32,625 nt of DNA from Acidimicrobiales bacterium. GTDB taxonomy: Bacteria > Actinomycetota > Acidimicrobiia > Acidimicrobiales > MedAcidi-G1. Both the position numbers and the translations under genes were made by a program. The first letter of the stretch is position 1. Each line of letters opens with the position of its first letter. The stretch is taken from NCBI GenBank assembly GCA_022449565.1, contig JAKUSA010000014.1, forward strand, positions 1 through 32,625. The letters are read 5' to 3'. Below, piece after piece: positions 16,333 to 25,867 of the stretch. The notes under the pieces were generated by a model. That model searched no databases. It saw only the letters and a program-made list of their open reading frames with translations, and was not told the origin of the DNA.

Positions 16333-18132
16333 ATGGCGATCGTGGACGACGATGTGCGTCGGGTCCGCGACGAAGCTGACATCGTACGGCTGATCACCCC
16401 GCACACACAGTTGAAGAAGGTGGGGCGACAATGGAGCGGTCTGTGCCCGTTTCACAACGAGAAGACTCCTTCCTTTTCGGTGAACCAGGAAAAGGGCGTC
16501 TACTACTGCTTTGGGTGCCAGGCCCAGGGTGACGCCATCGAGTTCGTCCGCCAGATGGAGGGCCTGGATTTCGTAGGGGCCGTCGAGGTCCTCGCCGCTC
16601 GATCCGGCATCACCCTCCGCTACACGGAAAGGGCCGAGGGTCGTTCCCGGAGCCGCCGTAAGGAACTCACAGAACTGGTCGCCCGGGCGGCCGCCTTCTA
16701 CCACGAGAGGCTCATGGACCAGGGTGACACCGACGCCCGCCCGGCCCGCGACTACCTGCGGTCCCGCGGCTACGACGGAGAGGTAGCCCGCACCTTCACC
16801 ATCGGCTGGGCTCCCGACGGCTGGAACGCCCTGTCCACCCACCTGAAGGTCTCCGATGAGGACCTGGTTGCTGCCGGATTGGGGGCACTCAACCGCCATG
16901 GCGGTCAGTACGACTTCTTTCGGGCCAGGATCGTGTTCCCCATCTTCGATGAACGGGGTGAAGCAGTGGGTTTCGGCGGCCGGAAGCTTCCCGACGCAGA
17001 GGGGCCGAAGTACAAGAACACCTCTGACCGGGCGGAGATCTACTCGAAGAGCCAGATCCTTTACGGGCTCAACTGGGCGAAAACCGAGGCGGGTCGGATG
17101 GACGAACTGGTGGTTTGTGAGGGGTACACGGACGTGATCGGCTGCCATCTGGCCGGTGTAGAGCGCTCGGTCGCCACTTGTGGGACAGCACTCACCCCGG
17201 ACCACGCGCGGAAGATGGCCCGGTTCGTGAAGCGGGTGGTACTGGCCTTCGATGCCGACGGGCCCGGCCAAGCCGCCGCTGAGCGGGTCTATGGGTGGGA
17301 GTCGGAGTTCGGCCTCCAGTTCGCAGTCGCCGACCTACCAGCCGGTTCTGATCCCGGCGACCTAGCCCGCTCGGATCCCGAGGGCATGCAACGGGCAATC
17401 GCTGAGGCCCGTCCATACCTGGAGTTCCGGGTTGACCGAGTGCTCGAGCGGGCCGAGATGGATTCGCTGGAGGGACGGGCCCGGGCGGCCACCGAGGCGA
17501 TGGTTCTAGTTGCCGAGCATCCCGAGGAACTAGTACGTGACCAATACGTGATGCGCATCGCCGACCGATGCCTGGTGTCGGCCGACGAAGTACGGCGGCT
17601 AGCCACAGTGGGTGGGCGTAACTCACCGAGCTCCGGCCAACGACCTGATGTGCGGTCAGCCGGCGGATCGGGTGGGAACATTCCGGGGAGGTTGACGATC
17701 GAACATCAGGCGCTGCGCCTGTTGATCCACCGACCCGAGGACCTGTCGGCCTGGCTGGCCCCAGCCCTGTTCGCCGATCCGGTCGCCGAGATGGCCTACC
17801 GCGCATTGGCCGAGGTCGGTGAATTCCATGGCGCCCGGGCGACCGTCGACGACGAGACCGCCGACCTGCTGGGCCGCCTGGCCGTGCAGGATGCTTCCGA
17901 CGACGACCCGAAGGGCGTGGTCTGCCGGTTGCTGGCACTGGCCGCCGAACGCAATGCGGTCGAGTTGGAGGCCCGAGCCCGCTCCTCCGGGGACCTCGGG
18001 ACCTACCAGCCGTCGATCGCCTTCTTGCGACGCGGGGTCATTGACCTGCGAGAGACAGTGGCCGACCTTGACCAGGTGGAGCCGTTACTACGGTGGCTCA
18101 TCGACTACTCAGAAAATGACACCGATGGTTGA
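16333..18132 (+). CDS. dnaG: DNA primase DnaG
   Basis: Zn motif CPFHNEKTPSFSVNQEKGVYYCFGC; toprim ELVVCEGYTDVI; VVLAFDADGPG. Confidence 0.95.
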   Translation: MAIVDDDVRRVRDEADIVRLITPHTQLKKVGRQWSGLCPFHNEKTPSFSVNQEKGVYYCFGCQAQGDAIEFVRQMEGLDFVGAVEVLAARSGITLRYTERAEGRSRSRRKELTELVARAAAFYHERLMDQGDTDARPARDYLRSRGYDGEVARTFTIGWAPDGWNALSTHLKVSDEDLVAAGLGALNRHGGQYDFFRARIVFPIFDERGEAVGFGGRKLPDAEGPKYKNTSDRAEIYSKSQILYGLNWAKTEAGRMDELVVCEGYTDVIGCHLAGVERSVATCGTALTPDHARKMARFVKRVVLAFDADGPGQAAAERVYGWESEFGLQFAVADLPAGSDPGDLARSDPEGMQRAIAEARPYLEFRVDRVLERAEMDSLEGRARAATEAMVLVAEHPEELVRDQYVMRIADRCLVSADEVRRLATVGGRNSPSSGQRPDVRSAGGSGGNIPGRLTIEHQALRLLIHRPEDLSAWLAPALFADPVAEMAYRALAEVGEFHGARATVDDETADLLGRLAVQDASDDDPKGVVCRLLALAAERNAVELEARARSSGDLGTYQPSIAFLRRGVIDLRETVADLDQVEPLLRWLIDYSENDTDG

Positions 18133-18337
18133 CGAGGCCCCGGCAGCCTACTCGTGGTCCGGGGTGTCCGAATTCGAGTTCACCCGACTGGTAAGGCACG
18201 GGAGGACTCGTGGCCGCCTGAGCCTCGATTAGGTGATCGATGTGGTACGCGACACCGAGTTGACGTCGGAATTGATTGAGGCAGTACGGGCCGATCCATT
18301 GAGGAGTTACCTCGAGGGAGACGACCGGGTTGGTTAG
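18125..18337 (+). pseudogene. Sigma-70 region-1.1-like fragment interrupted by TAG (18230..18232)
   Basis: Readthrough gives ..EFEFTRLVRHGRTRGRLSLD*VIDVVRDTELTSELIEAVRADPLRSYLEGDDRVG*, resembling RpoD region 1.1, directly after dnaG. Confidence 0.5.
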
Positions 18338-18394: not shown

Positions 18395-18467
18395 TCCGGG
18401 GTAGCTCAGTTGGCAGAGCGTCGGACTGTTAATCCGCAGGTCGTGGGTTCGAGCCCCACCCCCGGAG
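18395..18467 (+). tRNA. tRNA-Asn (GTT)
   Basis: Acceptor TCCGGGG/CCCCGGA; anticodon loop CTGTTAA; T-loop GTGGGTTCGAGCCCCAC. Confidence 0.93.
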
Positions 18468-18468
18468 C
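18427..18468 (+). repeat. att-like direct repeat, copy 1 (within tRNA-Asn)
   Basis: TGTTAATCCGCAGGTCGTGGGTTCGAGCCCCACCCCCGGAGC; 41/42 identical to 19908..19949. Confidence 0.85.
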
Positions 18469-18644
18469 AAGGAAACTGCAGGTCAGAGCCAGTCCTTAGG
18501 GGCCGGGGTGATCTTCGAGTAGGCCCTTCTGGCAGCCCTGCTAGTCGGCCCGTCCGATACGAACTAAACACCTACCCACGGCTCGCGCTGCAAAGCCCGC
18601 AACTGTCAACAGAAGCAGGGCAGCATCACGACCAGGAAGAAGAT

Positions 18645-19661
18645 GTGAATCACAAACCGACAACCGTGTTCGATCGACTCGGTGCTCTACGGGGCCTGCT
18701 CACGATCAGCGACGATGATTTCAATGCCTACATGCGGTCCTACGACGAGTTATTCGTCGACTCGCCCGAAAACACTAAGGCAGACCACGACAACGGTGTT
18801 CCGCTGAAGGGGTATCCGCAGGGCAGCAGTGACGAACTCCAGGAGCTTTACAAGGTCATTCATCTACTCTGCACGCTCGGCTCGGTTGAAAAGATGTACA
18901 TGCCGCCCGAGATCGATCCGGAACAATCAGTGCTCCAGAATCAGATCCTGTTCGAGCGGATTGTTGCCAACGATCTCAATCTGAGCAGAGGAGACAAGGT
19001 GCTCGACCTGGGGTGTGGCTGTGGCGCCATAGCCGAGCACATCGCTGAACTCACCGGGGCGACGCCCTACGGCATCAACCTTGACAGATCTCAGATCGAG
19101 AAGTCCTGGAAGAACCCGAACCTTTCGAGTTCCAACTTCACCATCGGCGACTTCAACAAACCACTCGAATTCGATGACGGCGCGTTCGACGCTATCTACG
19201 CCATCCAGCCGATGACCTACGTCAGCGACCATGAGTTCACATTCAAGGAAGTGTTTCGCGTCCTGAAACCAGGAGGGATGTTCGTCATCAATGACGTCGC
19301 GGCGCTCGACGCCTACGACCGCGAAAACGAACACCAGAAGACCCTGATTCAACACACCCGCGAGCTGACCGTGTTCGGAGGGTTCTGGCACTACAAATAC
19401 TGGGAAGACTCGTACAGGAACGCCGGTTTCAATCTGATCTCCTCCCTAGGGCGACCTGCGGTGGAGATGATCAAGAAAGAGGTCGCACTGTTCGACAAGT
19501 ACGAAGCGGCGTTCAAGTTCCTCGCCAAGATCCACCTGATTCCGAAGAAGACCGACGCACTGATGAAACGCTTGAACGAAAACAGCCAGTCCTACATCCA
19601 AGCCGAGGAAGAGGAACTGCTGACACTCAACTGGCACTGCGTCGGACAGAAACCGGAGTGA
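18645..19661 (+). CDS. SAM-dependent methyltransferase, sterol-C24-methyltransferase (Erg6/SMT)-like
   Basis: VLDLGCGCGAIAEHIAELTGATPYGINLDRSQI; FDDGAFDAIYAIQPMTYVSDHEFTFKEVFRVLKPGGMFVINDVAALDAYDRENEHQ. Confidence 0.75.
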   Translation: MNHKPTTVFDRLGALRGLLTISDDDFNAYMRSYDELFVDSPENTKADHDNGVPLKGYPQGSSDELQELYKVIHLLCTLGSVEKMYMPPEIDPEQSVLQNQILFERIVANDLNLSRGDKVLDLGCGCGAIAEHIAELTGATPYGINLDRSQIEKSWKNPNLSSSNFTIGDFNKPLEFDDGAFDAIYAIQPMTYVSDHEFTFKEVFRVLKPGGMFVINDVAALDAYDRENEHQKTLIQHTRELTVFGGFWHYKYWEDSYRNAGFNLISSLGRPAVEMIKKEVALFDKYEAAFKFLAKIHLIPKKTDALMKRLNENSQSYIQAEEEELLTLNWHCVGQKPE

Positions 19662-19699
19662 CTCGGGGCGTTTCCTGAACTGCGTCTCCGCTCGAGTCA

Positions 19700-19716
19700 C
19701 CCCGCGAGCGGGGTTT
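19700..19716 (+). terminator. Terminator-like hairpin CCCCGC-GA-GCGGGG followed by TTT
   Basis: GC-rich inverted repeat with short T run about 40 nt after the methyltransferase stop. Confidence 0.4.
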
Positions 19717-19907
19717 CAGCGGGCCAGAGACGAAAGGGGGGGAGCGCTAGAACCAAGACAGCCCTGCCGGTGGGCGGCGCTCAATGCACACCTCATTGCA
19801 CAGAATGCACACCACCAGGCGGACACAGACTTACCCGACAGACACAGAGGCGTGAATCCACGGGCGCTAGAGGTCTAGGTGGACACCTCGGACAGATTTC
19901 TGTGATT

Positions 19908-19949
19908 TGTTAATCCGCAGGTCGTGGGTTCGAGCCCCATCCCCGGAGC
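19908..19949 (+). repeat. att-like direct repeat, copy 2 (partial tRNA-Asn 3' part)
   Basis: TGTTAATCCGCAGGTCGTGGGTTCGAGCCCCATCCCCGGAGC; no 5' tRNA half upstream. Confidence 0.85.
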
Positions 19950-19985: not shown

Positions 19986-21191
19986 TCAGCTCCGGCCGCT
20001 CCTCCAGGTGAGACGTGAGCCGAGTAAGTGCCCACCGGGCATCACCACGGCGAGGGCAATGAGGAATGCGGCGAGGGGTCCGACCCCGATCCAGTTAACC
20101 AGGGCGTTGGTGACAGCCAGGCGGGTGAAGAGCAGCACCCCGAGGACGAGGTGCATCCCCACCAGCCGTCGGACGCGGTCGAGGAAGGTGCGGGCCGGAC
20201 GGCCGGCGAAGGTCCACAGGTCGTGGAGAAGGACGGTGAACAGGATCGCGGTCTCGCCGGCGATAGCCGCCGACCGAGTCAGGTTCCAGCCGCTCAGGTC
20301 AAAAAGGGCCAGGAACACTACGGCGTCAAGTGCCAGCGCCACCCCGGTGACCGCCAGGTAGCGGACGAGGGCTCGGCTACGCAGTGGGTAGACGCGCAAT
20401 CGGAGGAGGTGTCGGAGGTAGCCGACGTAGTGACCGACCGCCACCTTGGACCGGCCGGCGGTTCGTTGCAAGAACACATACGGGGATTCAACAAGCCGAC
20501 GGACATCACAACGGGCTAGGACCTCCAGGAGGATCTTGTAGCCGACGGGATCCATTTCGGTGCCGGCGACGATGTCCCGTCGGAGTAGGAAGTAACCGCT
20601 CATCGGGTCGGTTACCCGGCCGATCGTTCCGGGGAGGAGCAGCTGTCCCAGGGTCTGCGCCCCGCGTGAGAGGAGGCGGCGGGCGGGCGACCAGCCGACC
20701 ATTCCCCCTTCCGGGAGGTGCCGGCTGGCCACAGCGACATCGGCACCCTCACTCATCGAGGCAAGGAGGTCCACGATCACATTGGGCGGGTGTTGCCCAT
20801 CGCCGTCGATAGCCCCCAGGAGGCGTCCGTGGGCGTACGACCAACCACCGAGTACCGCGGTGGCCAGGCCAGTGGCCTCTTGCCGTCTGATGACGGTCAA
20901 CTCGGGGATCTCGGTGGTCAACCCGGCGGCTACCCGCCAGGTTTCGTCGGGACTGTCGTCGTCAACGACGATGAGTTCGAAGCCGACTCCGGTGGCTGTC
21001 AAGGCTGCGTGGAGGCCCCGGAGAAGGTCGCCGATGTTGTCGGCCTCGTCGTAGGTGGGCACGACCAGGCTGACCTCGATGGTCGGGTCGTACCCGTCTG
21101 GGATGGGGCGGGGTTGGTCGCCGGTGACCTCGACGACCTTGCCGGAGGTCACGACGTCTCCTGGCGACGGTGGTAAGTATGGGCGGTCCAC
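19986..21191 (-). CDS. Glycosyltransferase family 2 (dolichol-phosphate mannosyltransferase-like) with C-terminal GtrA-like membrane domain
   Basis: SLVVPTYDEADNIGDLLRGL, ELIVVDDDSPDETW, GAIDGDGQHPP, DPMSGYFLLRRD; four hydrophobic C-terminal segments. Confidence 0.88.
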   Translation of the reverse strand: MDRPYLPPSPGDVVTSGKVVEVTGDQPRPIPDGYDPTIEVSLVVPTYDEADNIGDLLRGLHAALTATGVGFELIVVDDDSPDETWRVAAGLTTEIPELTVIRRQEATGLATAVLGGWSYAHGRLLGAIDGDGQHPPNVIVDLLASMSEGADVAVASRHLPEGGMVGWSPARRLLSRGAQTLGQLLLPGTIGRVTDPMSGYFLLRRDIVAGTEMDPVGYKILLEVLARCDVRRLVESPYVFLQRTAGRSKVAVGHYVGYLRHLLRLRVYPLRSRALVRYLAVTGVALALDAVVFLALFDLSGWNLTRSAAIAGETAILFTVLLHDLWTFAGRPARTFLDRVRRLVGMHLVLGVLLFTRLAVTNALVNWIGVGPLAAFLIALAVVMPGGHLLGSRLTWRSGRS

Positions 21192-25641: not shown

Positions 25642-25867
25642 GCCTCGTCCTCCTCGAAGATCACTCCGGCGGCTTCCGGGTCCACACCCGCCGGCCGGAT
25701 CGTTTCTGCGTTAACGGTTAAGAAGAACGTCATGCCCTAAGGCTCGCGCAGTTCCTAGTCCACCTGCTCTTCTAGCGAGGTCTAGCTCCAGGATTGGCTA
25801 AAGCTTGACTATGAAACCCGCGACTACCGAAAACCACCGGTGACCTGTGTTTCTGGACCCGTAGTTG

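Follow-up and report, generated by a model that had tools for sequence, protein, structure and literature searches.

The analysed window, the whole 32,625-nt stretch of contig JAKUSA010000014.1, carries an intact tRNA-Asn gene whose segment from the anticodon loop to the 3' end recurs downstream as a second 42-bp copy, the two enclosing 1439 bp (18469-19907). The copies differ at a single position (C/T), the downstream copy lacks the tRNA 5' half, and the repeat is not a product of chance, since its blastn match within the window has E = 2e-16. The description in the earlier note of a cassette bounded by tRNA-Asn and a copy of its 3' part is therefore real, holding at 41/42 positions. As in a genomic island, the intact tDNA marks one end, and its own 3' fragment, displaced and in the same orientation, marks the other. 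The cassette holds one long open reading frame, encoding a methyltransferase, and contains neither an integrase nor an integrase remnant, bearing out an earlier claim; no tandem element is now present at this tRNA-Asn. To the right lies a GT2/GtrA-type gene, which adjoins tRNA-Asn in element-free relatives. The features are listed in Table 1.

Table 1. Features of the cassette and its flanks in the window, with the family integrases found beside tRNA or tmRNA genes.
Feature	Position	Strand	Basis
tRNA-Asn(GTT), presumed regenerated target gene (attL)	18395..18468	+	ARAGORN, intact
Core repeat within tRNA, anticodon loop to 3' end	18427..18468	+	41/42 match to 19908-19949
Element-type, terminator-like sequence after tRNA	18469..18510	+	blastn, 88% to G063:C23 attL, L049 13036-12995
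GCCGGGGTG, 9-bp overlap of two homologies, candidate deletion scar	18502..18510	+	homologies 1-42 and 34-74
Remnant of conserved gene end (DPEAAGVIFE-stop type) and following motif	18502..18553	+	blastn, nhmmer, 82-93%
Methyltransferase upstream region, 84-86% to G024 and G029 copies	18556..18644	+	blastn L159, L160
SAM-dependent methyltransferase, 338 aa, probable residual cargo	18645..19661	+	Pfam, PDB, NCBIfam
Left extension of arm (GCCCTGCCGGTGGGCGGCGCTCAA), partly conserved	19761..19784	+	alignment
Putative attP P-arm: TGCAC at 19785, 19797 and 19806, then GACA-containing repeats, end CGGACAGATTTCTGTGAT	19785..19906	+	alignment, nhmmer
Original 3' part of tRNA-Asn, presumably displaced (attR core)	19908..19949	+	41/42 match
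Right chromosomal flank: GT2/GtrA-type glycosyltransferase	19986..21191	-	Pfam; tblastn in L140, L141, L146, L149, L150
Integrase beside tRNA-Lys(CTT)	C37 of the window's assembly		full-length
Integrase beside tRNA-Arg(TCT)	G010		
Integrase beside tmRNA	G015 and G063		
Integrase (truncated) beside tRNA-Asn	G063:C23		

The source assembly (labelled G000, with contigs C9, C37, C132 and C20) is a fragmented MAG, 74.6% complete with 3.7% contamination. Contig C37 is 3.7 kb long and C9 is also short, and C37 may come from an organism other than that of the window. The second tRNA-Asn of the assembly, on C132, was considered as a further integration site and rejected, its flanks being nearly identical to those of G033 from another genus: the contig end there (L045 14602-14978) carries a sigma C-terminus, tRNA-Asn and a terminator, and on this sequence similarity C132 is probably a contaminant. 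Within the window a sigma-factor gene remnant with an in-frame TAG lies at 18127-18337. Many relatives have a sigma-factor gene of about 415-435 aa after dnaG, and C20 holds another sigma-70-like gene, 51% identical; in one other genus, two loci (L144, L145) yielded no linked sigma gene in the interval from dnaG to the GtrA-type gene.

The cassette has a G+C content of 0.566, compared with 0.651 and 0.645 in the 10 kb to its left and right, respectively, and ranks third lowest among 1560 sliding windows of the same size, the lower ones overlapping the cassette itself. The codon usage value of the methyltransferase frame, 0.278, falls within the range of five host genes (0.22-0.32) and was rejected as a sign of foreign origin, as it does not discriminate. 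Of the compositional difference proposed earlier, the lower G+C than the neighbours thus held while codon usage did not, which limits the claim to G+C.

The methyltransferase matches Methyltransf_31 (Pfam, E = 2e-17), and its nearest solved structures in PDB, phosphoethanolamine and sterol methyltransferases, are informative at the domain level only; among the NCBIfam models listed, none reached its cut-off. Homologues with 84-95% amino acid identity occur in four other genomes from two genera (g5, g3), in unrelated contexts with no tRNA or arm nearby, whereas the DnaG proteins encoded at the tRNA-Asn locus share 51-67% identity among the genomes compared. This patchy distribution points to lateral spread of the methyltransferase, with a slowly evolving protein as the alternative.

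Directly before the displaced tRNA fragment lies a conserved arm. Its detection began with a query of the cassette against its own assembly, which returned a second match of 120 bp at C9; a right-end query then matched eight of 61 genomes, the window's own included, and a consensus query located the arm in 11/48 genomes of the family. A degenerate arm pattern found seven stretches among 84,980 species genomes, all in Acidimicrobiales-type MAGs, while the exact pattern had no match among IMG/VR viral contigs and the arm none among phage records. The aligned copies have about 122 bp in common, with three TGCACA repeats at the start and CGGACAGATTTCTGTGAT at the end, and in nearly all of them, across genera, a tRNA or tmRNA 3' fragment follows directly: of Asn type in the window, G028, G023 and G019, of Arg(TCT) type in G063:C23, Pro-like in G015:C19 and G013, and of tmRNA in G015:C18 and G063:C45. 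This anatomy is that of a putative attP arm beside an attR core.

Several copies depart from the pattern. The C9 copy (L003, 5003-5122), 99% identical to the consensus, abuts coding sequence rather than a tRNA, apparently part of a short-chain dehydrogenase, making a secondary site or a rearranged element end possible. The flank of the G009:C4 arm has no recognised tRNA or tmRNA identity, a T-loop-like core common to G015 and G034 has no assigned identity, and G014 and G062 hold partial arm matches. A second, divergent arm in G013 (L041, G013:C2, 13800-13926, minus strand) abuts a tRNA 5' half in reverse, which suggests that this element integrated from the opposite side of the anticodon loop. 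At L038 (G015:C18, 11064-12470), two arms of the same orientation flank a small gene at a spacing of about 1.2 kb; one abuts the tmRNA 3' fragment and the other the T-loop-like core seen in G034, a likely tandem of two element ends.

The partner ends of these elements carry a tyrosine integrase. PF00589 matches in 14 genomes were followed by a subfamily search, which identified in four genomes an integrase directly downstream of a tRNA or tmRNA gene, with 68-80% amino acid identity between loci; across 298 genomes of the order, the integrases that come next reach about 35% identity at most. Between loci, identity is 77-89% for catalytic domains and 47-59% for N-terminal domains (the two tmRNA copies left out); core-binding domains are 88% identical between the Lys-site and Asn-site integrases and 55-67% between other unlike targets. 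No phage or plasmid source came to light: the integrase matches listed among phage and plasmid records are only 23-29% identical, and a search of IMG/VR gave no integrase relatives. Contig G063:C45 carries a complete 33-kb island, reading tmRNA, integrase, cargo, arm and tmRNA 3' end, with an interior of about 31 kb that is mostly 50-56% G+C. The ten cargo frames examined encode metabolic or transport proteins, including molybdopterin dehydrogenase subunits, a BMP-type ABC transporter, hydantoinase A/B, a thiolase, amidohydrolases and a beta-lactamase-family protein, and none has a phage or conjugation domain. These islands apparently constitute an undescribed family of tDNA-targeting integrative elements in marine Acidimicrobiales. 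Neither the arm, nor the family of relatives, nor the integrase elsewhere in the assembly figured in the earlier note; they are new here.

All integrase-bearing left ends (5/5) contain exactly two TGCAC repeats, 10-11 bp apart and 59-85 nt after the tRNA, matching those of the arm; such repeats are absent from tRNA-Asn loci with no arm nearby (0/10). In G034 the repeat reads GTCAC at the left end and in the arm alike, in corresponding places. That both ends change together is the strongest sign that a cognate integrase recognises the repeats, which would then be its binding sites; this paired replacement of TGCAC by GTCAC also suggests that integrase arm specificity could be mapped by comparison alone. 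The GTCAC element occupies the same tRNA-Asn (L042, 15560-17000, G034:C5) and contains part of a different integrase, oppositely oriented.

The left end of the window contains no TGCAC repeat. Its match to the integrase-bearing G063:C23 covers 42 bp and stops exactly at GGGGTG; the terminator-like sequence involved is a weaker diagnostic because the native terminators of element-free loci resemble it. The remnant that overlaps this match is of a type that relatives carry at the ends of genes and immediately to the left of the arm, and the nine bases common to both homologies (GCCGGGGTG/GCCGGAGTG) resemble a microhomology scar. Such a gene end was also considered as a second recombination site and rejected, looking instead like a conserved protein C-terminus, for example of pentapeptide-repeat frames; a further DPEAAGVIFE gene-end motif lies elsewhere in the window (25650-25684, minus strand). 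Decay of the integrase at this tRNA-Asn is seen directly in a sister element (G019, L050), which keeps only a C-terminal integrase fragment along with two cargo genes, while a former integrase of the window's own element would be a matter of reconstruction, as the cassette holds no integrase fragment.

The genus of the window is represented by one genome, and the element-free loci belong to other genera of the family. Five genomes (G021, G024, G003, G067 and G068; loci L140, L141, L146, L149 and L150) show tRNA-Asn followed by the GtrA-type gene and tRNA-Met with no arm, most cleanly in G021, where the end of the gene lies about 90 bp after the tRNA. The empty site sought earlier is thus represented by element-free loci in related genera but not by one of the same species, and absence is shown at the orthologous locus. 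Vertical sharing of the arrangement was rejected, as orthologous loci of related genera lack the element. Site-specific integration at the tRNA 3' end, proposed earlier, is supported by these loci, by an arm that abuts the distal repeat and is common to a complete integrase-bearing island, and by the rejection of vertical sharing and of a decayed tandem tRNA copy.

Taken together, the cassette is quite probably a decayed remnant of a tyrosine-integrase integrative island, with the methyltransferase as residual cargo. A circular form of the island would have carried an attP site with a P arm bearing three TGCACA repeats, a core corresponding to tRNA-Asn from the anticodon loop to the 3' end, and a P' arm with two TGCACA repeats, the integrase gene lying directly beside P'. 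Recombination into the anticodon loop of tRNA-Asn would have supplied a new 3' half from the island and displaced the original half to 19908-19949. A later deletion between short homologies, GCCGGGGTG at the left end and GCCGGAGTG at the end of a cargo gene, may have removed the P' repeats, the integrase and the left cargo in one event, leaving the gene tail, the methyltransferase, the P arm and attR. If the P' repeats are needed for movement, the cassette would now be immobile.

The cassette could instead be a non-autonomous unit still mobile in trans, the C37 integrase binding the common arm to excise or integrate it. This is considered unlikely, even though the window arm shows no visible decay, with three TGCAC repeats and 93% identity to the consensus, because the window lacks the P' repeats that every integrase-bearing left end has, and carries a visible deletion scar. 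A full-length family integrase does exist in the same assembly, yet its 3.7-kb contig may come from a different organism. A single base separates its tRNA-Lys core (GGACTCTTAATCCG) from the Asn core (GGACTGTTAATCCG), and the Lys-site and Asn-site integrases share 88% identity in their core-binding domains; nevertheless, no second methyltransferase cassette was found adjoining an arm, and the four close homologues lie in ordinary contexts. Between the options of mobilisation in trans and a deletion remnant that had been left standing earlier, the missing P' TGCAC repeats and the 9-bp scar favour the remnant.

A broader scheme, in which one integrase family with a common attP arm serves complete islands as well as single-gene cassettes that lack an integrase, at several tRNA genes and at tmRNA, is distinctly speculative and improbable as it stands. 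If true, small cassettes such as this one would travel in trans from one tDNA site or genus to another, and tDNA-targeting integrases would sustain a division of labour like that of integrons. It is very improbable that the arm of about 122 bp is itself a MITE-like transposable element lying near tRNA genes incidentally: it is repeated and free of coding sequence, and its C9 copy adjoins a protein-coding region, yet one of its ends nearly always meets a tRNA or tmRNA fragment in a single orientation, the partner ends have a tRNA or tmRNA and an integrase with the same repeats, and the repeat type in G034 switches jointly at both ends. A decayed tandem duplication of tRNA-Asn enclosing the methyltransferase gene by chance would fit the bare tRNA fragment at the right but is scarcely credible, as that fragment is preceded by an arm also found before other tRNA and tmRNA fragments in other genera, and insert-free orthologous loci exist.

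The reading as an island remnant links an anonymous 1.4-kb cassette to an island family carrying metabolic genes among marine Acidimicrobiales, for which such elements appear little described in the literature searched, with one full-text match. In MAGs, tRNA-flanked islands are usually broken across contigs, and the common arm offers a sequence by which islands and their remnants can be found there.

Among known systems, integron cassettes and CALIN elements were compared by site type and integrase: here a tRNA core beside a long arm makes up each site, and the family integrase scores 25.4 against the integron integrase model, far below its cut-off of 265. Tycheposons, cargo-carrying marine elements at tRNA genes (PMC10872708, PMC11389934), are compared through second-hand description: the marine host is alike, and a tRNA border, a tyrosine recombinase and metabolic cargo are combined in the complete relatives rather than in the window, while the integrase family and target set, as far as that description extends, are particular to this actinobacterial family. 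Islands of the parent family agree with the description of the tDNA-targeting islands with tyrosine integrases catalogued by Islander (PMC4383910), with a regenerated target, a displaced 3' fragment, crossover in the anticodon loop and tmRNA as a further target, but differ in having one conserved attP arm common to several different tDNA targets. The cassette itself would be discarded by the Islander algorithm because it is too short, below 2 kb, and has no integrase. A close parallel is the cis-mobilizable element (CIME), a decayed integrative element retaining attL and attR (PMC5704250). The cassette likewise lacks integrase and transfer genes and has a regenerated tRNA target, an attR with its arm and retained cargo; unlike a CIME, its attL keeps the tRNA core and loses the TGCAC repeats, so that attL function is probably lost, and its parent family showed no conjugation genes among the frames tested. 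On the best reading, the cassette looks like a decayed integrative element, a CIME-like deletion remnant.
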